Positions 705 through 19,230 of a DNA stretch of 27,699 nucleotides are shown here, one piece after another (the first letter of the stretch is position 1; each line of letters starts with the position of its first letter). The DNA lies in IMG/VR virus record IMGVR_UViG_3300031952_004490, positions 1 to 27,699 of that record. One strand, written 5' to 3'. The DNA is from a virus. A program made the position numbers and the translations under genes. The notes beneath the pieces are model-generated. The model was not told the origin of the DNA. It saw nothing but the letters and a program-made list of their open reading frames with translations, and ran no database searches.

Positions 705-1100
705 TCAAAGATTAAGTAAAGAAATGCTGTCCCAATGAGGATCAGCCGGAAGATACTTAGGATCACAATAATAAAATATTTCCATTTTGTATTTATAAGG
801 TTTTTCCAAAACCTGCTCTCTAGTCATGCCATTCGCCATGTCTTCGGCTATTTCACGAGGAATACGAATTGAATCGCCTTCAGTTGCATACAACAAATTT
901 TTCATGATTTGAGAGGCTGACACACCTTTATTGGGCATATGCAACAAGTCAATCATTTGTTTCTTTTCATTGCTAGATACGAATTCAGCTATTGCTGAAT
1001 ATCTAACCATAATTTGACCTTTTTGTAAAGTATGATTTCTGACATCGAAAAAATATTTACTAAAATTCGTTTCATCAATAATTAATTCAGGTTCAGTCAT
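705..1100 (-). CDS. Unknown protein, 131 aa
   Basis: The ATG at 1100 overlaps the dnaE C-half stop by 4 nt (ATGA), so it is probably translationally coupled to the polymerase fragment. The sequence is soluble, mixed alpha/beta in character, with an acidic N-terminus (MTEPELIIDETNF) and a segment IRIPREIAEDMANGMTREQV that may be helical. No catalytic motif or known domain is apparent. Coupling to dnaE suggests, but does not show, a replication-related role. Confidence 0.7.
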   Translation of the reverse strand: MTEPELIIDETNFSKYFFDVRNHTLQKGQIMVRYSAIAEFVSSNEKKQMIDLLHMPNKGVSASQIMKNLLYATEGDSIRIPREIAEDMANGMTREQVLEKPYKYKMEIFYYCDPKYLPADPHWDSISLLNL

Positions 1101-4100
1101 ACTTCTAACACCTTAATTCCAAGATTGATAAGTTGATTGGGGTAACTCATTGGCTGGAATGCTTCCGTTTCATCCAATATTGTCGGTCTAGCCATAACCA
1201 CAATACGATGATCTTTGTCTTTTTCTTTTGGCAATTCCTTCCAACGATTTTGTTTAGAAGGTGCATCAAAAGTATATGATTGCCAACCACCCTCTGGCTT
1301 TTTCAAACGAATGCTTAAATAATTGCCTTTTCTAACATCGTTTTCCCAATATTCTAATTCTTCTTTAAATCTATCATAGTCGTCAGACCAGAATGTAATA
1401 GTTTGCGACTTGGAATTTGCATCTTCAACTAAAACCGTGTAATAAATTGTCTTTTTATTTTTCGATTCTTTTCGCTTAGGGCGTTCCACAACATGTAGCT
1501 CACAAGCACGAACCGAAACAGTCTCGTCTTCTTCAAAATCAGAAAATGCTCTGTCGCCTTGGAAATCTGGACTGCTCTCTAATAAGTGTTTCCAACTAAA
1601 TCCATAATATTTACTTTCAGCTACCTGCGGCACCTCGCACAAAAGCTCTTTCATGTCCGCAGTCAACACGCCACTCGGTATAAATCCTTCTAAAGGATCA
1701 ATAATAACTTCTTTATTAGAATTAGCTATCGATCTTTTATATTTTTGAACCGCCTTCCATAACGCCTTCATATCCTCTGCACTAATACTATGCCAAGGGC
1801 ACTCTGCATCCTGCGCAGCCTGCATCTCTGTGTGGAAATCTTCTTCTAAATCAAACTCCGCACCCCATGTTAAAACTTTCTCATATTTTGGATTTATTTC
1901 GAATTCAGTTACCTGCTTAGTCGGCATCTTACCTTTAAGTGCCAAAAACATTAAGAGCCATTTATTTCTAGGAGATAAATCTTCTTCGCCTTCTGGTCCG
2001 GTATATTTTTCCTCCATCGGCGACAAGATAGCTTCTGTTTCTATGATAAGCCTTTTCCGATTATCTGCCGCTCTTTTTTGAGCATCCATGAATTTTTTAT
2101 GTGCTGCTTTGTAATATTCATAATATTCATATAATTGAACAGGCTCATCATCCTCAAAAATACGCAAAGCAATTAAAGCTTTTACCACATTGGCATCTGT
2201 GCCGAAACGATGTAGAAAATCTTCGAAACCTGAATAAGGTTGGTTGGCTACTATCTTTTCAGCGACTTCATCACCAATGCCTTTTATATTAGCAAAACCC
2301 ATATAAATGGAGTCATCGGTAATATCAAATTTAACCTTTGATTTATTGAGCGTGACACGCCCAATACTTATACCCATGCTTTCCGCCTCTTGTCGGTATC
2401 CCTTGATTTTCGTAGCATCTTTTTCACAACTCAAAGTCGCCGTAAAAAATTCCAAAGGATAATGAGCTTTCAACCAAAGTAAACGACTAGAAATATACGC
2501 ATAGGCAACAGAATGACTGTTTGATGTTATAATTCCTGTGGGCAATATAAAGTTGTGCGTTGGGCAGGCAACTTCAAGATCATACATTTGTCGTTTGCCC
2601 ACGGCACGGACTCGTACAATTTTCCTAGACACCAAATTCCTGGTATCGGATATCCCAGCATGTAAGTTAGAACCTGGAACCACTCTTCCTTCATTGCTCC
2701 ATTTGACGATTTGAAACATTCCATACCTGCTCTGATTAAAGTTATATTCTTGCGGGAAATTGCTTCTTCTTTGAGCATTTGATCCCGTTCTTGAATAATA
2801 CTCCAAGGTCTGTTCCATTTCACAGGCCACGTCTCTTTGAAATGATGAGGACCATCGATTTCTATCCAAACATGGTCTTTCACAAAATCCACTTGTTTGC
2901 GAAATTCCCCACATCGAATTTTCGACATCTCCCATCCCAAAGTTGCTTTCAACCACTGTTCCATTCTTGATCGTTTGGAACTTTTCCAAGCTGCTTCGGT
3001 GCAGGCGGCAAACTTCTCTGGATTGTTTTTTCGCCATTCGCTCAACTGTTTCGCCCGAGCAGCCAATATTTCTGGTCTCGAAGAAGTCTTCTTCGCTGTC
3101 TCGGAAAAAATTGCTTTCCTTTCGGGAGACAAATTGTCTGCATTTAACTTCTCCATTTTGATCCGAATATTTTCGGCTTTGACAATGTTGCATTTGGAGC
3201 AGGTCTTTAAATGAGCCTCTCGCAATCTCCAAGTTACAAAAGTTTCTCCACATCTTGCCGTATGAACTATTGTTTCTCCATTGGGTTTTTTCTTCCAAGC
3301 CGTTCGGATACATTTCTCGCAAGACTTGTGATGAGCATACATCATTCTTTGAGAATTCACAATTTGTCCGCACCGAGTCGTCCATATATTTTTCATCCAC
3401 GCTCCTATAGTTAGGGTCACTATATATAGTAGAGCGTGTTCTGCAAATTTTTCGTAAAGAAATTTGTCCTTCTGGAGTTAAAAATTTATGATCTAAACTA
3501 CAAATTATTAAATATCCATCATCAAATGTTACTTCATAACCCTCTATAATCCCATGATTATGTAAAGCCACAACAGGTGATTTTATAGTTTCGCCTTGTT
3601 CGTTCACAGAATAAACAATATCACCAGGGACAAAATCTTCTATTTTCTTCAATCCTTTATCAGTTGGAACTAAAGTTCCTTTGGTCACACTTTTATTGAA
3701 TCCGTAATCAGCAAATGCCTCAATTTGATCCCATAATCCTTGAACTTGTGCCTCAGTCCATCCCAAAGTCTTCTGTCCATTTTTAATGAACATTTCTTTG
3801 TATCGACCAAATATCTTGATTTTCTTTTTAGATACGGCTTTACGAACAATTTCGCAATGCATATCGGGAACATTCCCAACTACACGCAGAATCTTCATCA
3901 ATTGTTCTTGGAATGCCATAACACCATAGGTCGAACCTAAAATAGGTTGCAACACAGGATGCAATTCATATTGTTCATAACCCCGTTTACGAGATACATA
4001 AACATCATGCATTCCCAAGCCCATCGGACCAGGGCGATACAGTGCCGAATAAGCTGCCAAATCGTCAAATGAATCAACGCCACCACGCCGCACTAATTCT

Positions 4101-5050
4101 CGAATGCCCTCACTGTCAAATTGGAATATACATTTCAATTTACCTTCATTAGCCAAAGCTAATGCGGCTGGATCATTCAAATAAGCCGTATCGCTCCAAT
4201 CTGATTGTCCTGGCATGGCACAAATAGAATCGATACCATGTCGTTCTTTGATAATTTTACAAGCTTTTGCAATCTGCAAGAGGTTTATAATGGCCAATAA
4301 ATCGAATTTAATCAATCCTAATGGACCTAAATCCGTCCCGTGCAAACCTTCAACGAAGGCAGAAACGTGAGCCCCATCTTTACCACGAACTAACGGAACC
4401 AATGTATCTATAGGGCGGCTAGATATGATGAGACCCGCCGCATGCATACCAGTGCCACGATTACGATTTAATAGCTTCTTGGCAGCTTCTGCTACGTCTG
4501 GATTTTCTTCACAATATTTCTTTAAATCAGGATATTGCTCCAATGCTTTGTCCCAAGTCAAAGCATTGCCGTCATCATCTTTCAAACCCATTTTAGTAGT
4601 AAGTTTTAAGACTTCACTACGATCTTTGCCATGCACCCGAGCCATGTCAATTAAAGATGATTTGATGCCGAACGTTGTGTAATTGCCAATAGCACAAACG
4701 TTATCGACGCCAAATTCTTTTAATGCCCATTCGGTTTTAAGATAATCCCGAACTACAGGCAAATAATCCATATCTATATCTGGAAATTCACCTTGAACAT
4801 AAACTGGAGGTTCATCGATATCAAAATCATCGACTAAACCCAAAAGATAAGCAAAGAATAAATTGTTTTCATTCTTGGCGAATTTACATTTCTTTTTATA
4901 TAGATCATAAAAATACTCAAACTCCATCAAAGCTTCAATTTCTTTGACTTCTGATGTGAGTCGATCAACAAAATTCCCTTGGGTTAACCCCAAGGCAACC
5001 ATACGATCACGACAAGCGTGAAACAAAACGCTTTTAACATCTACTTCCAT
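1097..5050 (-). CDS. dnaE: DNA polymerase III alpha subunit, C-terminal half, with intein
   Basis: This encodes the catalytic C-terminal part of a bacterial-type (C-family) replicative polymerase; the PHP and first palm motif are in a separate gene at 16.4-17.8 kb. After about 85 residues without clear counterpart come PDIDMD (about 90-95, catalytic Asp91 and Asp93, equivalent to E. coli D401/D403), GTGMHAAGLIIS, and LIKFDLL (Asp250, equivalent to D555). Next are LYRPGPMGLG, TYGVMAFQEQ and FADYGFNK, where an intein of about 391 aa (454-844) interrupts before SHSVAYAYIS. Then follow a helix-hairpin-helix (ANIKGIGDEVAEKI) and an OB-like domain (YYTVLVEDANSKSQTITFW). No beta-clamp motif was identified with confidence. 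The start ATG has AAGGAA upstream. The mature protein after splicing would be about 926 aa. Confidence 0.95.
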   Translation of the reverse strand: MEVDVKSVLFHACRDRMVALGLTQGNFVDRLTSEVKEIEALMEFEYFYDLYKKKCKFAKNENNLFFAYLLGLVDDFDIDEPPVYVQGEFPDIDMDYLPVVRDYLKTEWALKEFGVDNVCAIGNYTTFGIKSSLIDMARVHGKDRSEVLKLTTKMGLKDDDGNALTWDKALEQYPDLKKYCEENPDVAEAAKKLLNRNRGTGMHAAGLIISSRPIDTLVPLVRGKDGAHVSAFVEGLHGTDLGPLGLIKFDLLAIINLLQIAKACKIIKERHGIDSICAMPGQSDWSDTAYLNDPAALALANEGKLKCIFQFDSEGIRELVRRGGVDSFDDLAAYSALYRPGPMGLGMHDVYVSRKRGYEQYELHPVLQPILGSTYGVMAFQEQLMKILRVVGNVPDMHCEIVRKAVSKKKIKIFGRYKEMFIKNGQKTLGWTEAQVQGLWDQIEAFADYGFNKSVTKGTLVPTDKGLKKIEDFVPGDIVYSVNEQGETIKSPVVALHNHGIIEGYEVTFDDGYLIICSLDHKFLTPEGQISLRKICRTRSTIYSDPNYRSVDEKYMDDSVRTNCEFSKNDVCSSQVLREMYPNGLEEKTQWRNNSSYGKMWRNFCNLEIARGSFKDLLQMQHCQSRKYSDQNGEVKCRQFVSRKESNFFRDSEEDFFETRNIGCSGETVERMAKKQSREVCRLHRSSLEKFQTIKNGTVVESNFGMGDVENSMWGISQTSGFCERPCLDRNRWSSSFQRDVACEMEQTLEYYSRTGSNAQRRSNFPQEYNFNQSRYGMFQIVKWSNEGRVVPGSNLHAGISDTRNLVSRKIVRVRAVGKRQMYDLEVACPTHNFILPTGIITSNSHSVAYAYISSRLLWLKAHYPLEFFTATLSCEKDATKIKGYRQEAESMGISIGRVTLNKSKVKFDITDDSIYMGFANIKGIGDEVAEKIVANQPYSGFEDFLHRFGTDANVVKALIALRIFEDDEPVQLYEYYEYYKAAHKKFMDAQKRAADNRKRLIIETEAILSPMEEKYTGPEGEEDLSPRNKWLLMFLALKGKMPTKQVTEFEINPKYEKVLTWGAEFDLEEDFHTEMQAAQDAECPWHSISAEDMKALWKAVQKYKRSIANSNKEVIIDPLEGFIPSGVLTADMKELLCEVPQVAESKYYGFSWKHLLESSPDFQGDRAFSDFEEDETVSVRACELHVVERPKRKESKNKKTIYYTVLVEDANSKSQTITFWSDDYDRFKEELEYWENDVRKGNYLSIRLKKPEGGWQSYTFDAPSKQNRWKELPKEKDKDHRIVVMARPTILDETEAFQPMSYPNQLINLGIKVLEV
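2527..3396 (-). CDS. Vsr-like (EDxHH) putative homing endonuclease, out of frame inside the intein
   Basis: A 289-aa protein encoded wholly within the intein DNA, in the +1 frame relative to dnaE. The ATG at 3396 has AGGAG five bases upstream. The N-terminus has two tandem zinc-binding repeats with identical spacing: Cys9/His22/Cys26/Cys29 and Cys49/His62/Cys66/Cys69. A charged linker is followed by a Vsr/PD-(D/E)XK-type core, QVDFV (Asp170) and WIEIDGPHHF (Glu179, Asp181, His184, His185), then IRAG. These are hallmarks of very-short-patch-repair-like homing nucleases. The last ~37 residues are read from the same DNA as intein blocks F/G, and the stop lies 8 nt before the intein boundary. It probably cuts intein-less dnaE alleles. 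Read-through of both frames across about 870 nt is striking. Confidence 0.85.
   Translation of the reverse strand: MKNIWTTRCGQIVNSQRMMYAHHKSCEKCIRTAWKKKPNGETIVHTARCGETFVTWRLREAHLKTCSKCNIVKAENIRIKMEKLNADNLSPERKAIFSETAKKTSSRPEILAARAKQLSEWRKNNPEKFAACTEAAWKSSKRSRMEQWLKATLGWEMSKIRCGEFRKQVDFVKDHVWIEIDGPHHFKETWPVKWNRPWSIIQERDQMLKEEAISRKNITLIRAGMECFKSSNGAMKEEWFQVLTYMLGYPIPGIWCLGKLYESVPWANDKCMILKLPAQRTTLYCPQEL
3398..3438 (-). promoter_or_regulatory. RBS-sequestering hairpin with embedded TATATATA, before nested endonuclease
   Basis: Perfect 7-bp GC-rich arms (CACGCTC at 3438-3432 pairing with GAGCGTG at 3404-3398, minus-strand sense) enclose a 27-nt loop. Most of the Shine-Dalgarno AGGAG (3406-3402) lies in the 3' arm. 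The loop contains ACTATATATAGT. Transcripts from dnaE would form the hairpin and hide the RBS; a transcript starting within the loop would lack the 5' arm. The same architecture is known for T4 I-TevI and is inferred here. Confidence 0.6.
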
Positions 5051-5762: not shown

Positions 5763-6765
5763 CTTTATCTTTGCCTTCAAAATGGGTAAAGCCAAAATTG
5801 TTTTTATCGTCTTCCTCAGAAGATACTTTTTCTTCCACCATGCTCTTTAAGCTTTTAATGACCCCATCATATGGATCACCTAAAATACAAACAGCAATAT
5901 ATAACTCCTTCAAATGAGCAACTGACATTTTCGCCGTATCTTTCACCCAGCGATTAAGATCATAATCGTGCGTCTTATCTTTAAACAAATGCTCGAAATA
6001 AAGACGACGAGAAGCTTCTTTAGGATGCGGCATTTTGTAACGACGATCAAACCGACTAGGACGATTAATGATTCGTGGTCCTAGTTTTTCAGGATAATTC
6101 GTTGTTGCCAAATAAACAACTTTATCAATTGATTCAATGCCATCTAGAATGTTGAGAACATCAGTTTCTCCCCATTCTTCAATCGTGGCATCAATATCCT
6201 CCATTAATACAACTAATGGGGTATCTTTTTGAATTGTGCGAATAACACGAATACATTCAATAAATATATTGGGCACACCAAATTTAATGGCAATCCCATT
6301 ACGCTCAAATACATCCCGCAGGATTAATTTGATGGTGCTGCTTTTGCCACTGCCCGGTGGACCCCATAAAATAACGCCTCGTTTATAGGGCAATTTATTT
6401 TCTCGAAACTTAGCTTCTAATTCCCAAAATTTTTGAATTTCAGCAACAACACGTTGAGAATTTGTTTCTGGAAATTCCAGCAAACCCTCTGTATTGCAAT
6501 CTACCTTTTCAAGAAAATAGCCTCGATTAGGACAATACTTTGGCTCCCATAAAGCCGGGCCAAGTTCATCATAAGTTCTTCCCGCAGGAAAGAATTTGAT
6601 ATTGTCTGTCGAAGTCCATTGTTGATATGCGCCCGAAGATTCTTCTTCTTCATCTGGTGCGTCATATTCGTAAGGACGTGGAGCTTTAATTTTAGCTTTA
6701 ACAACCTTCGCTACTTCGGATGCCAAAATTTTATTTAGCTCTTTATTTTCTGTTTGTAATGACAT
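5755..6765 (-). CDS. AAA+ ATPase, BCS1-like
   Basis: The 336-aa protein has a single AAA module: Walker A GPPGSGKS (about 135-142), Walker B VVLMEDID (about 185-192) and sensor-1 YLATTNYPEKL (Asn223). An arginine-finger segment NRPSRFDRR (about 234-242) is the BCS1/AAA arrangement. The N-terminal ~125 residues include an acidic patch (DAPDEEEESS) and lack a transmembrane helix, unlike mitochondrial BCS1. The lid region after 250 is short. AAA proteins of this type remodel or unfold protein partners; the substrate is unknown. It sits in a coupled run with the 62-aa and SLOG genes. The ATG at 6765 follows AGG. Confidence 0.88.
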   Translation of the reverse strand: MSLQTENKELNKILASEVAKVVKAKIKAPRPYEYDAPDEEEESSGAYQQWTSTDNIKFFPAGRTYDELGPALWEPKYCPNRGYFLEKVDCNTEGLLEFPETNSQRVVAEIQKFWELEAKFRENKLPYKRGVILWGPPGSGKSSTIKLILRDVFERNGIAIKFGVPNIFIECIRVIRTIQKDTPLVVLMEDIDATIEEWGETDVLNILDGIESIDKVVYLATTNYPEKLGPRIINRPSRFDRRYKMPHPKEASRRLYFEHLFKDKTHDYDLNRWVKDTAKMSVAHLKELYIAVCILGDPYDGVIKSLKSMVEEKVSSEEDDKNNFGFTHFEGKDKDD

Positions 6766-13502: not shown

Positions 13503-14051
13503 TTATGAACGGGTGGCGTCATTTTCTACAACTGCACGACAAAATTTTACAACTTCCTCCCCATCCCAGCCATTCTTCGCATATTGTGCAATCAAAGAAA
13601 CAAACTGAACATTACCTTTAACATATCCTTTAGAACTATCAATACGATCCAAACTTGCTTGATCTGGTCTTGTCGGAATACTAAATCTTCTGTTTGTTGT
13701 AGGAAGAATAAATAAATTCCAACCAGTAAAAGGACAAAGACCTTTTTGTTTGTCCCATTGTATTTTCAAATCAGTTAATGTAATAGAAAATTCTCTTTTG
13801 TCTGATCTTGATTGTGAATGCCTCTTGCAAGAATTAAACAAACATCGAAAAGCAGAGAACTCATCTAACTCATGTCCTTTTTTTAATTTCGAAACATCTT
13901 TGTTTCTTTTATCTCCGAAATTATCTGCATTGGCTTTGCCTGCACATGATAAAGAACAATATATTTTTCGACTATTTTTTTTACTCCGATTTACTTCCGC
14001 AGGTCTTCTTTGAAATTCATTCCCGCAGACTTCACAAATTAAATTTATCAT
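13503..14051 (-). CDS. HNH endonuclease with N-terminal zinc finger, beside tmRNA
   Basis: The 182-aa protein has a treble-clef-like zinc site at the N-terminus (ICEVCGNEF and IYCSLSCAGKA, two CxxC-type pairs). A C-terminal HNH-like fold follows: KQKGLCPFTGWNLF, ASLDRIDSSKGYVKGNVQFV and SLIAQYAKNGW, the order typical of phage-associated HNH nucleases. The start is ATG at 14051 with GGAGG five bases upstream; an in-frame GTG-like extension to 14063 would include the RBS and is rejected. It lies immediately downstream of the tmRNA terminator, so it is a probable free-standing homing endonuclease using the tmRNA locus as its niche. The RBS lies in a hairpin. Confidence 0.82.
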   Translation of the reverse strand: MINLICEVCGNEFQRRPAEVNRSKKNSRKIYCSLSCAGKANADNFGDKRNKDVSKLKKGHELDEFSAFRCLFNSCKRHSQSRSDKREFSITLTDLKIQWDKQKGLCPFTGWNLFILPTTNRRFSIPTRPDQASLDRIDSSKGYVKGNVQFVSLIAQYAKNGWDGEEVVKFCRAVVENDATRS

Positions 14052-14056
14052 ATCCA

Positions 14057-14084
14057 CCTCCAAATATAAAATATATAGTGGAGG
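14057..14084 (-). promoter_or_regulatory. RBS-sequestering hairpin with embedded ACTATATAT, before HNH gene
   Basis: Arms CCTCCA (14084-14079, minus sense) and TGGAGG (14062-14057) form a 6-bp stem around a 16-nt A/T loop. A mismatch and two further G-C pairs can extend it outward. The Shine-Dalgarno GGAGG is entirely inside the 3' arm. The loop starts CTATATAT, matching the motif in the hairpin of the intein-nested endonuclease. Confidence 0.6.
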
Positions 14085-16380: not shown

Positions 16381-17810
16381 TTAAAAAGGACAACTTTCTG
16401 CAACTTGTTCCATATAAATAGGGTCTGATGTAAATTTAGTTTTCAACGTTTTACCACCACGAGCAGGGCTAAGAAATCTAGAAAACAACAGATCATGTTT
16501 AATAGAGTCCACATCATGAATTCCTAAACAATAAGCCACTAAACTCCCGCAGACACTGCCTCGCCCAGGACCAACCGCTTCAGACCCATCACCCCAACCT
16601 AGTAATTCAGGGCATTTCCTACGAGCTTCATCCGTCATTTTCTTTTGAATCAAAAAATAAGAAGAAAAACCTTTCTGAGTAATTAGCGACAATTCTTCTT
16701 CTATTCTTTTTCTGTAATCGGTCTGTTGGGGCAATCCTCTACGTATAAATCCTGCAATTGTGGCTTCTTTGAGTTTCTGATCGGCGGAATCAAATTGTGG
16801 CAATTTAATTGTTCGATCTAACTGCACTCCCCTAGCTAATTCACAAATTGCAACTGTATTCTTTTTAGCCTGTTGCAACAAATCGAAATCAACAATGTCA
16901 CTATAATGTGACCGCCACTTGGCAGTAATTTCTTCTTCAGATTTCATCCACAGGTTTTGATCCTGTAGTTCGAACATATCTGCTGTTTCATCTTCCTCAA
17001 GAGCTTTTTGGATATCTTGAATCGTCTTCCCAGTTTGCACCATCAAGGTCAAACGTTGCATTTTACTATCTTCTTGCAGACAGTAATGGCAATCGTTGGT
17101 AATAATTAATGGAATGCCATATTTCAAATGTGCCCGAATAATAAAGGCATCAAATGGTTTTTGTTTAGCAAAATCTAAGAACATAAGTTCCAAGTAGAAG
17201 TTTTTGCCAAACATCGCCATGTATTTTTCGACCATTGCAAACCCGGCTTCATCGCCGCCACGGTCGAAAGCTTGACCAATTTCACCGTTGTAACAACAAC
17301 TAGTAAAAATGATCCCTTCTTTATATTTCAGCAATTGTTCATGGTTTACTCTAGGACGATAGTAAAAACCTTTCGTCCAGCCCCATGATGACAATTTAAC
17401 AAGATTAGAATAACCTACATCTGTATAGGCTATTGCCAATAAATGATACGATTTTCTGAATCGTTTTTTAGCTTCGGGATCGAATTGTTTGGCAAACTCA
17501 CCACCAGCTTCACCTTCTTTTAATTCTGGCTGCTGTGGGTTGACATACAATTCGCAAGCGAATATGGGATTTATTTTATGTTCTTCGCAAGCACGAATTT
17601 GTCTTGGAATAGAACCCATCACCCCATGATCGGAAATACACAGATATTGCTGATTTATTTGTCTGGCACGTTCTGCATATTCTTCTACTGTCCCATAGCC
17701 GTCGAGTAGAGAAAATTCAATTTTGATTATCCCCCGAAAGAAATTCTTTCGGGGGATAATCAGTCGGAGTGAAGATGTAAATGCTCAAAGCCAACGCATT
17801 TATCCTTCAC
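16381..17810 (-). CDS. dnaE: DNA polymerase III alpha, N-terminal half (PHP + first palm motif), interrupted by 47 nt
   Basis: The product supplies the PHP domain and start of the palm of the split polymerase. GTG at 17810 follows AAGGGAG and encodes 16 codons ending in the PHP metal motif HLHLHS (17783-17766) and Asp (17765-17763), directly followed by TGA. The family continuation FSLLDGYG resumes at 17715, in a different frame, 47 nt later. Downstream come SDHG (17634-17623), ACELY, YHLLAIAY, NDCHY (Asp and His ligands), and at the C-terminal end GPGRGSVCGSLVAYCLGI, then LLFSRFLSP. It stops before the PDxDxD motif, which is in the other half at 1.1-5.05 kb. Without joining, the protein from GTG 17622 would lack the first PHP motif. 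A ribosomal bypass, a -1 frameshift (adding about 16 residues), a sequencing error or decay are all possible. Confidence 0.85.
17725..17761. repeat. Perfect 37-nt palindrome inside the dnaE N-half coding gap
   Basis: Two 18-base arms flank one central base. It starts at the second base of the TGA that stops the 16-codon PHP start and occupies most of the 47-nt gap. No T-tract follows. A G-rich GGGGGA lies about 12 nt before the first codon of the resumed frame. Confidence 0.92.
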
Positions 17811-17814
17811 TCCG
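17765..17814 (-). promoter_or_regulatory. Stem-loop spanning the first 16 codons of dnaE N-half
   Basis: CGGAGTGAAG (17814-17805) pairs perfectly with CTTCACTCCG (17774-17765), and TAAATGC (17802-17796) with GCATTTA (17784-17778), separated by a small internal loop, with an 11-nt apical loop. The GTG start codon lies in the outer stem, and the structure ends with the first base of the last sense codon. It abuts the 37-nt palindrome with only 3 nt between. Confidence 0.8.
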
Positions 17815-17841
17815 TCTCCCTTCTTTATAAAAATGTCCAAT

Positions 17842-18180
17842 TTAAATACCTTTATGTTTCAACCAATTAACAAATTCTACAGTGGAATATTTAGCACCTT
17901 TAACATTGTTCGCATGTTGCGATAAAGGCTGCAAATTGTCAAGAGCATTTATGATTTTAAAATCATAAATGCTGTGATCTAAAAATGCTTTTATAGGGAA
18001 AATATGATCTACATGCCAAATGTTATTTTTTACATTATCCCAATTTGGATGTGATTCAATATGTTTCTGCAATTGTTTGTAATCATATCCCAAAATACTT
18101 GCTGTTTTATTATCTTTAACACGACCTGTTGCTTGCAATGTGGCCATTACTAATCCGCAACAACGTTTTCTAAAAAACAA
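17842..18180 (-). CDS. HNH endonuclease upstream of dnaE N-half
   Basis: The C-terminal part shows an HNH nuclease: NIWHVDHIFPIKAFLDHSIY then INALDNLQPLSQHANNVKGAK, with the H-x-D-H-I metal motif and the LQPL..N..K helix. Length is about 112 aa from TTG at 18180. No ATG is available further upstream, but the frame is open to 18256 and would add NIVKWLTANHPNWNPDRKQI, which repeats the HPNW word found again downstream (ESHPNWDNV). So the true start may be non-standard, coupled to the overlapping upstream gene, or an ATG at 18147 may be used. It ends 31 nt before the dnaE N-half start, as expected of a homing nuclease next to a target exon. Confidence 0.75.
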   Translation of the reverse strand: MFFRKRCCGLVMATLQATGRVKDNKTASILGYDYKQLQKHIESHPNWDNVKNNIWHVDHIFPIKAFLDHSIYDFKIINALDNLQPLSQHANNVKGAKYSTVEFVNWLKHKGI

Positions 18181-18230
18181 ATTATTTTCAATTTGTTTTC
18201 TATCTGGATTCCAATTTGGATGATTAGCAG

Positions 18231-18596
18231 TCAGCCACTTAACAATGTTATAATTGATCTAATGCCGTCGATAATAGAACCGCCGCCATCCCAATTTGAA
18301 TTTACCTGAGCAATGAAATCATGAACTGCATCTTCTTCTGCATCACGTTCATTAATTAGAACTATAACAGCATCTGACAAATGCACGTTTTGATCTAAAT
18401 TTTTACAATTATCTATTAGCAACTGACTAATTTTAGCACATTCGGTGCGGTAGGAATGAATGATTTTATCCTGTTCATGCATCGCATCTGCTTGTGCAAC
18501 AATTAAAGCTTTATGATCTTTGATTTTCTTTTCAAGATCAATAACATGTTGTCGCAAAAGCTTATTTTCTTCAGTCGCCATCCAGAAATTAGACAT
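18231..18596 (-). CDS. Unknown coiled-coil protein, 121 aa
   Basis: The ATG overlaps the upstream stop by 8 nt. Residues about 8-60 form a heptad-like helix (EENKLLRQHVIDLEKKIKDH), and the C-terminal half carries an acidic helix (INERDAEEDAVHDFIAQV) and a glycine-rich NWDGGGSIIDGI. No family is recognised. Its last codons are overlapped by the upstream extension of the HNH frame, suggesting the nuclease gene was inserted against its 3' end. Confidence 0.65.
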   Translation of the reverse strand: MSNFWMATEENKLLRQHVIDLEKKIKDHKALIVAQADAMHEQDKIIHSYRTECAKISQLLIDNCKNLDQNVHLSDAVIVLINERDAEEDAVHDFIAQVNSNWDGGGSIIDGIRSIITLLSG

Positions 18597-19230
18597 TATT
18601 TGGTTCCTTATAAGCTTCTTCTACTATATCACATTCGTAGTCAAGTTCAATATACGTACTGAAAGAGGGCCATGCCTGCCAAGATATTTTTATTTCACCC
18701 GTTTTATAATTAATAGTGCAATTTTCGACATCAATTGGCTCGGACACTTTAAACTTAAATTTACCATTTTCATCAATTTGAAAACTATTGATTTGCACTC
18801 CACCTACAGCCACTCGACCCATTATTGTTCCTGCATCCGGTAGGTATTTCATTGCAGAGAAACAAGTTTCATACCGATCATTGCCAATCGTTACAACTTC
18901 ATTTTGAATAAGTTGTCGCTGATAGTAAAAAGGCTCAGCTTCAATTTTTATGGCATCCACATGTGCAAAAAATTCTTCATCACTCTTTTTGTATTCCTCG
19001 TAATTCAATGTCTCTTGAATAGCCCAATCAAGCATTCTATCCAATACTTCAACCGCAGCAGCTTTATGCTCTGCTGGAATAAAAGATAACAATAAATCAC
19101 GATCAGGATCAGCTATTTTATCAGATAAATATTCTGCGCCTGCATCGACACCCCAAGCTCCGCACGCCAAACCCCATTGTATGCCTTCAGCAACAACATT
19201 ATCTTTTTTTTTCAACCAATGATTGACCAT
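18589..19230 (-). CDS. Unknown protein, 213 aa
   Basis: I choose ATG at 19230, overlapping the preceding stop (TAATG); a longer in-frame reading to 19269 would lie within the upstream gene. The N-terminal ~100 residues look helical with an amphipathic segment (VAEGIQWGLACGAWGVDAGA), the middle has FYYQRQLIQNE, and the C-terminal half appears beta-rich (KFKFKVSEPIDVENCTINYK; YIELDYECDIVEE). No family or catalytic motif is recognised. Confidence 0.7.
   Translation of the reverse strand: MVNHWLKKKDNVVAEGIQWGLACGAWGVDAGAEYLSDKIADPDRDLLLSFIPAEHKAAAVEVLDRMLDWAIQETLNYEEYKKSDEEFFAHVDAIKIEAEPFYYQRQLIQNEVVTIGNDRYETCFSAMKYLPDAGTIMGRVAVGGVQINSFQIDENGKFKFKVSEPIDVENCTINYKTGEIKISWQAWPSFSTYIELDYECDIVEEAYKEPNNV

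Follow-up and report, generated by a model that had tools for sequence, protein, structure and literature searches.

The first half of dnaE in the window, which is the whole 27,699-nt stretch of viral DNA analysed here, is interrupted within the first metal motif of its PHP domain. On the minus strand, the reading frame breaks after EHLHLHSD and FSLLDG resumes in another frame. The sequence strongly suggests that the ribosome bypasses the intervening nucleotides. Here, the insert is likely to be a programmed bypass site at which a 5' hairpin pulls the mRNA, and which was probably selected since such inserts would destroy a homing-endonuclease site. The initial annotation of this DNA had raised bypassing as a candidate, and this is the best supported of the readings considered below, owing to exact restoration of the motif, covariation in the hairpin and the lengths of the inserts.

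The first open reading frame (ORF1; 17763–17810, minus strand, as are all dnaE features below) begins at a GTG (17810–17808) preceded by a Shine-Dalgarno-like AAGGGAG (17816–17822). Its 16 codons, VKDKCVGFEHLHLHSD, encode the first metal motif of the PHP domain, which was aligned via the intact relative L003 to a DnaE1-type PHP domain (HLHNHTEYSMLDG), a chain that we take to be M. tuberculosis DnaE1. Judged by the family motif, the take-off codon would be GAC (Asp; 17763–17765), and a TGA stop (17760–17762) lies directly 3' of it. This is followed by ORF2 (16381–17715), which opens at 17715 with TTT TCT CTA CTC GAC GGC (FSLLDG) and encodes the remaining PHP domain and the beginning of the polymerase NTPase domain. 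Thus, the start, the ribosome-binding sequence, the 16 codons, the stop and the resumption 47 nt later in another frame are all where the initial annotation had placed them. The 47-nt non-coding gap (17716–17762) has no counterpart in the sister gene of L003. A palindrome that starts in the TGA was also described; it is perfect as claimed, but is 39 nt long (17724–17762; -30.2 kcal/mol) and not 37 nt, with arms of 19 nt each (17724–17742 and 17744–17762) separated by 1 nt. Within one arm lies GGGGGA (17730–17735), by sequence a weak possible Shine-Dalgarno-like element, 11 nt ahead of the putative landing codon as compared to the T4-type spacing of about 6 nt.

A second stem-loop, the 5' hairpin, spans positions 17765–17814 and emerges both from folding and from comparison of the family. 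It has two stems, one outer and one inner, and reaches to the first base of the take-off GAC, in keeping with the two-stem hairpin that had been noted at the last sense codon. Its folding energy is -23.6 kcal/mol versus -13.0 +/- 3.6 kcal/mol expected for synonymous sequence, and only 31 of 5000 synonymous shuffles fold as low.

Loci bearing this half of dnaE were collected from IMG/VR, one bacterial-bin contig and one large-phage record. Including the window, the comparison set comprises 90 loci in 66 clusters at 95% identity. Searching relatives for genes with and without the insert was the check proposed at the outset; both kinds were found, and the inserts differ while the layout is the same. 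Intact relatives vary little from the motif EHLHLH(T/S)D(F/Y)SxLDG. Among sequenced phages, the window DNA had no DNA-level match; the closest record with a name, an unannotated 595-kb phage, is 59% identical and has an intact site save for one extra residue.

At this one spot, dnaE of these uncultured phages is interrupted by numerous unrelated inserts, which fall into three classes. Class a comprises inserts of 40–47 nt with a strong hairpin, located after HLHLH(T/S)D (the window, L026, L036, L043, L069 and L084–L087; also L121 and L122). Class b comprises inserts of 5–8 nt that begin with TAG or TGA directly after HLHLH (L014, L020, L023, L027, L031, L035, L054, L055, L059, L061–L063, L082, L088 and L089, with L162, L177 and L240 added from pattern scans). 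Class c comprises 6-nt inserts that form Leu-stop-Leu, so that nine nucleotides stand for one residue; these lie after FSVL in L005, L056 and L058, and within HLHL in L090. In addition, L039 has a group I intron at the D|F junction of the motif, and L008–L010 have theirs a few codons further on. One dnaE, in L048 (also L174; approximately 5900–6000), has two gaps six codons apart, 8 nt after HLHLH and a 46-nt hairpin after FSLL, and would need two hops in succession.

Removal of the gap yields the exact family motif in 38 of the 38 gap-bearing loci tabulated (22 distinct gaps). The gap lengths are 5, 6, 7, 8, 40, 41, 42 and 47 nt and cover all three frame classes. A stop codon comes first in every short insert, directly 3' of the take-off codon. 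A stop in this position is absent from most long-insert lineages other than the window, and L026 and L036 have no frame-0 stop within the gap at all, so slow decoding in these two must have another cause. A stem-loop at or after the take-off codon is present in the window and absent in the class with 5–8-nt inserts.

Two general explanations for the inserts were rejected. An alternative genetic code does not apply, as TAG, TGA and TAA all end long open reading frames in most contigs. A dispersed mobile repeat was dismissed because the GCCCCCGG-type hairpin occurs in nine IMG/VR contigs, all of which are known carriers of the dnaE site, and the exact palindrome of the window was found in no second IMG/VR contig, in a scan that may leave out close copies of the window genome.

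The 5' hairpin is the feature that the insert classes have in common. Its mean energy is -24.1 kcal/mol with 40–47-nt inserts and -20.0 kcal/mol with 5–8-nt inserts, versus -6.8 kcal/mol in 36 intact clusters, and all insert classes together differ from intact genes with p=1.5e-10 (clusters at 95% identity). The position of the hairpin shifts with the take-off site, and this includes the Leu stop-hop class. The 3' arm stops at the sixth residue of EHLHLH in class b and 6 nt beyond this in class a; in class c the hairpin is further downstream still, with its 5' arm at CACCGTGAAATC. Over 18 sequences, 214 of 216 class b stem pairs are standard, and at four positions both sides have changed, whereas intact genes in the same register pair at 50%. 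Folding 52 nt makes class c hairpins look weak, as their 5' arm sits further upstream; in a 66-nt fold they reach -16.8 to -18.7 kcal/mol, whereas two close intact relatives give about -6 and a third gives -11.7. Taken gene by gene, class c hairpins stand out only moderately (z -1.7 to -3.0). L240, which was found by its stop-codon pattern alone, has the hairpin as well, together with an HNH gene and CAT as a cognate landing codon. The 5' hairpin is missing from genes with an intron at the same site, consistent with their having no need of one.

The last three nucleotides of the gap, where the ribosome would land, match the take-off amino acid only in the Leu stop-hops of class c and in L240. 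Landing would be non-cognate in all 40–47-nt inserts and in most 5–8-nt inserts. In class a it would be from GAY to GAA or AAC, and in the window from GAC to GAA (17716–17718), the latter not being cognate to tRNA-Asp. The lack of a cognate landing codon, conceded when bypassing was first suggested, is therefore real and, with the exceptions just named, general in the family. Take-off in class b is from CAY, and NAY stands at the end of 11 of the 15 distinct gaps (versus 1 in 8 expected, p is about 1e-7 with the gaps taken as independent, which is only partly true), as if two of three bases suffice for landing. Work on T4 by Herr and co-workers (2004), cited in PMC3014915, reportedly holds, to go by its title, that minimal conventional pairing can suffice. 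The T4 mechanism also involves a nascent-peptide signal, KKYK, that acts about 30 residues ahead of take-off. This signal is missing from the window, where the 16 codons before take-off leave no room for it.

Together, these features suggest the following sequence of events. The ribosome would read the 16 codons to GAC (Asp), with TGA in the A site, and the peptidyl-tRNA would release the mRNA. As the mRNA emerges behind the ribosome, the 5' hairpin would zip up, and the palindrome of the gap would subsequently fold behind the ribosome as well, so that both structures would favour forward sliding. The peptidyl-tRNA would then re-pair beside TTT, and the product, EHLHLHSD-FSLLDG, would have an intact PHP metal motif. 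In related phages, a similar 5' hairpin would drive shorter hops, of 5–8 nt, across a stop. Selection probably favoured the inserts since the target of a homing endonuclease is destroyed while the protein is still made.

Alternatively, part of the gap could be translated, by a programmed single-nucleotide frameshift or by stop readthrough, so that the PHP motif gains residues. The initial annotation had pointed out that the resumed frame of the window is open through the gap and that a -1 shift at GAC-TGA would lengthen the product by about 16 residues; this is correct, and +1 or -1 shifts at single 7- or 8-nt inserts could similarly give two to three extra residues. As an explanation, however, frameshifting loses ground in the family, where gap lengths modulo 3 of 0, 1 and 2 would require -1, +1 and readthrough alike. 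Even a single family of closely similar inserts occurs in lengths of 40, 41 and 42 nt (L043, L036 and L084, respectively), each in a different frame, so no single frameshift serves, and in L084 there is a stop in the frame that would have to be read. There is no slippery heptamer at GAC-TGA in the window, no constant frame relation in the family, and none of the intact relatives compared has an insertion of two or more residues at the motif. Frameshifting is consequently considered improbable. Less probable again is that the two frames are never joined, with ORF1 being a leader peptide and DnaE being initiated downstream without the first PHP motif. ORF1 is indeed short, with a good ribosome site, and the hairpin that overlies it could be regulatory; but the residues flanking the gap are exactly those of intact genes and the HxH pair is part of the PHP metal site. 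Furthermore, the first in-frame start after the gap lies 31 codons into the conserved domain in the window, and at least 30 codons in for L014, L031, L058, L082 and L084.

That the gap is a tiny intron, or what is left of a group I intron, and is cut out of the RNA is very unlikely. The true group I introns at or near this site give the idea some appeal, but a gap of 40–47 nt is far below ribozyme size, and inserts of 5–8 nt with a similar 5' hairpin cannot be introns. The window contains no Rfam intron, and the 5' hairpin is missing in the intron carriers. A group I intron in the window was rejected, as a ribozyme core was found in L008 and L039 but had no match in the window. That the gap is an assembly error, or the gene a pseudogene, hardly merits belief. 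The exact insert of the window is known from a single contig, which would fit an error; however, many phages have this layout with distinct inserts, and identical inserts recur in up to six separate metagenomes. A sequencing error is very unlikely because phages from other samples share the arrangement with different inserts. Against a pseudogene is a dN/dS far below 1: it is 0.01–0.085 between pairs in which both genes bear inserts, and similar in intact pairs. Thus, the insert-bearing dnaE genes are under purifying selection and have kept their function. The tree requires about 17 changes between insert and intact states, of which at least 13 are forced by supported branches for the intact label; inserts are repeatedly gained or lost at one spot.

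What would select for a bypassed insert is suggested by the gene directly upstream of dnaE, which encodes an HNH (endonuclease VII-like) protein by PHROGs (17842–18180, minus strand). The upstream family matches PHROG 559 (HNH endonuclease) and PHROG 1035 (endonuclease VII), whereas Pfam gave no HNH match on the upstream open reading frames at 0.001 or 0.01. The window gene is shorter than its orthologues, and by sequence it is probably a truncated homing endonuclease that may be decayed; the corresponding T4 gene, mobA, is also thought to be decayed (PMC3014915). The gene contains a perfect 15+15-nt inverted repeat with no spacer (17944–17973). The sister phage L003, 77% identical, has neither HNH gene nor insert, and the window has about 1.1 kb extra upstream by comparison, HNH gene included. 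The stretch without an L003 counterpart (17735–18986, minus strand) contains the end of the upstream gene, a 121-aa open reading frame and the HNH gene, and it extends over ORF1 and most of the insert, a region too dissimilar to L003 at the DNA level for alignment. As in a T4 mobA-type cassette, an adjacent endonuclease gene and an insert occur together and both are missing at the empty site of L003.

Across the family, an HNH gene or gene fragment lies directly upstream in 13 of 29 insert or intron clusters versus 1 of 36 intact clusters (Fisher p=4e-5). Six of the 13 have fragments only. The intron carriers L008–L010 and L039 keep weak fragments upstream, and the HNH gene is missing in 16 insert lineages. 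Of the tree-independent pairs, about five join the HNH gene to the insert and none shows the reverse; in this strict tree-corrected test the median p is 0.06, short of 0.05. Most economically, inserts and introns alike would shield dnaE from the HNH endonuclease, a role argued for less firmly than bypassing itself. Protection from a neighbouring endonuclease was also proposed for the T4 gap (PMC5009743). The sole intact gene with an upstream HNH gene (L083, 2–1300) has an altered motif, HLHCHSHYS, which might represent resistance by substitution rather than by insertion.

T4 gene 60 is, to our knowledge, the only well-studied bacterial or phage example of ribosome bypassing. It has a stop after the take-off codon and a 5' stem-loop that pulls the mRNA (PMC5009743, PMC11194080, PMC3014915). 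The likeness in layout that was noted at the outset extends further than proposed, to an empty-site relative, an adjacent HNH gene and a family-wide 5' hairpin that accompanies bypass-type inserts. Both systems are phage replication genes with a stop after take-off, a gap of about 50 nt, a 5' stem-loop and a further stem-loop at or in the gap. In both, an HNH endonuclease gene is adjacent, and in T4 this is thought to explain the gap (PMC3014915, PMC5009743); related phages lack gap and endonuclease alike; and the protein itself is split in two genes (PMC3014915, PMC5009743). The geometry of the 5' hairpin fits the T4 model, where base pairs that form behind the ribosome pull on the mRNA (PMC5009743, PMC11194080), and we infer that the model applies here. 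The differences are the gene and its PHP motif, a hairpin that reaches up to the take-off codon, unmatched landing, the lack of room for KKYK, recurrence of inserts in many lineages and hops that range from 5 to 47 nt. With gap, stop and stem-loops present and matched codons and peptide signal absent, the window dnaE would still appear to work like T4 gene 60.

The byps of Magnusiomyces capitatus mitochondria resemble the dnaE inserts in being many, short and bypassed between codons that are not always matched (PMC5009743). They are spread over many mitochondrial genes, seemingly independent of mRNA context, whereas the dnaE inserts occupy one site in one gene and have a dedicated 5' hairpin. 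The Leu-stop-Leu arrangement in L005, L056, L058 and L090 is that of synthetic stop-hops, but is natural and comes with a 5' hairpin; as of 2016, no natural in-frame stop-hop was known (PMC5009743). A further parallel is F-CphI of cyanophage S-PM2, a free-standing EndoVII-motif endonuclease engaged in collaborative homing with group I introns (PMC6083498, PMC2988022). There, as here, a free-standing EndoVII-like/HNH gene neighbours a gene that has an intron in a conserved position; in contrast, most dnaE insert carriers would use bypass in place of an intron, and cleavage of dnaE is putative. A search of the open-access literature found nothing on bypassing in dnaE or PHP motifs.

Efficient bypassing in bacteria and phages has so far rested essentially on T4 gene 60 alone. 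The dnaE family offers about two dozen natural variants that differ in hop length and in take-off and landing codons and have the kind of hairpin in common; sister genes that are intact or bear introns can serve as controls. It is now possible to test whether a hairpin alone can pull the ribosome, how little pairing suffices for landing, and whether bypass protects against a homing endonuclease. More broadly, we lean somewhat towards the view that hopping is evolvable and has been reinvented again and again in answer to attack by homing endonucleases, in which a 5' hairpin suffices for hops of 5–47 nt, over stops and often with non-cognate landing, at a hot spot shared with group I introns. 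On a practical note, gene callers miss the starts of insert-bearing dnaE polymerases.

The second half of DnaE is a separate gene (1097–5050, minus strand; Pfam), about 11 kb from the first (16381–17715), and the protein is split between RFLSPARGG and PDIDMDY. As the first-half reading frame ends alike in most relatives checked, the split is old in this phage group. The second-half gene bears an intein, detected as a Pfam intein splicing domain just under the cut-off, and an open reading frame at 2527–3420 overlaps it in another frame. In L038 and L040, just upstream of position 6001, what appears to be an intein lies about 50 residues deeper in the PHP domain, ending HN before CELYxNPLQP, and the L038 contig also bears a class b insert (L177). 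These apparent inteins indicate that the PHP domain attracts several kinds of selfish element. The window also encodes a phage tmRNA (14142–14503; tag GETQYALAA), which is present in several relatives and might rescue ribosomes that fail the hop. A second HNH/endonuclease-like gene (13503–14063) adjoins the tmRNA gene.
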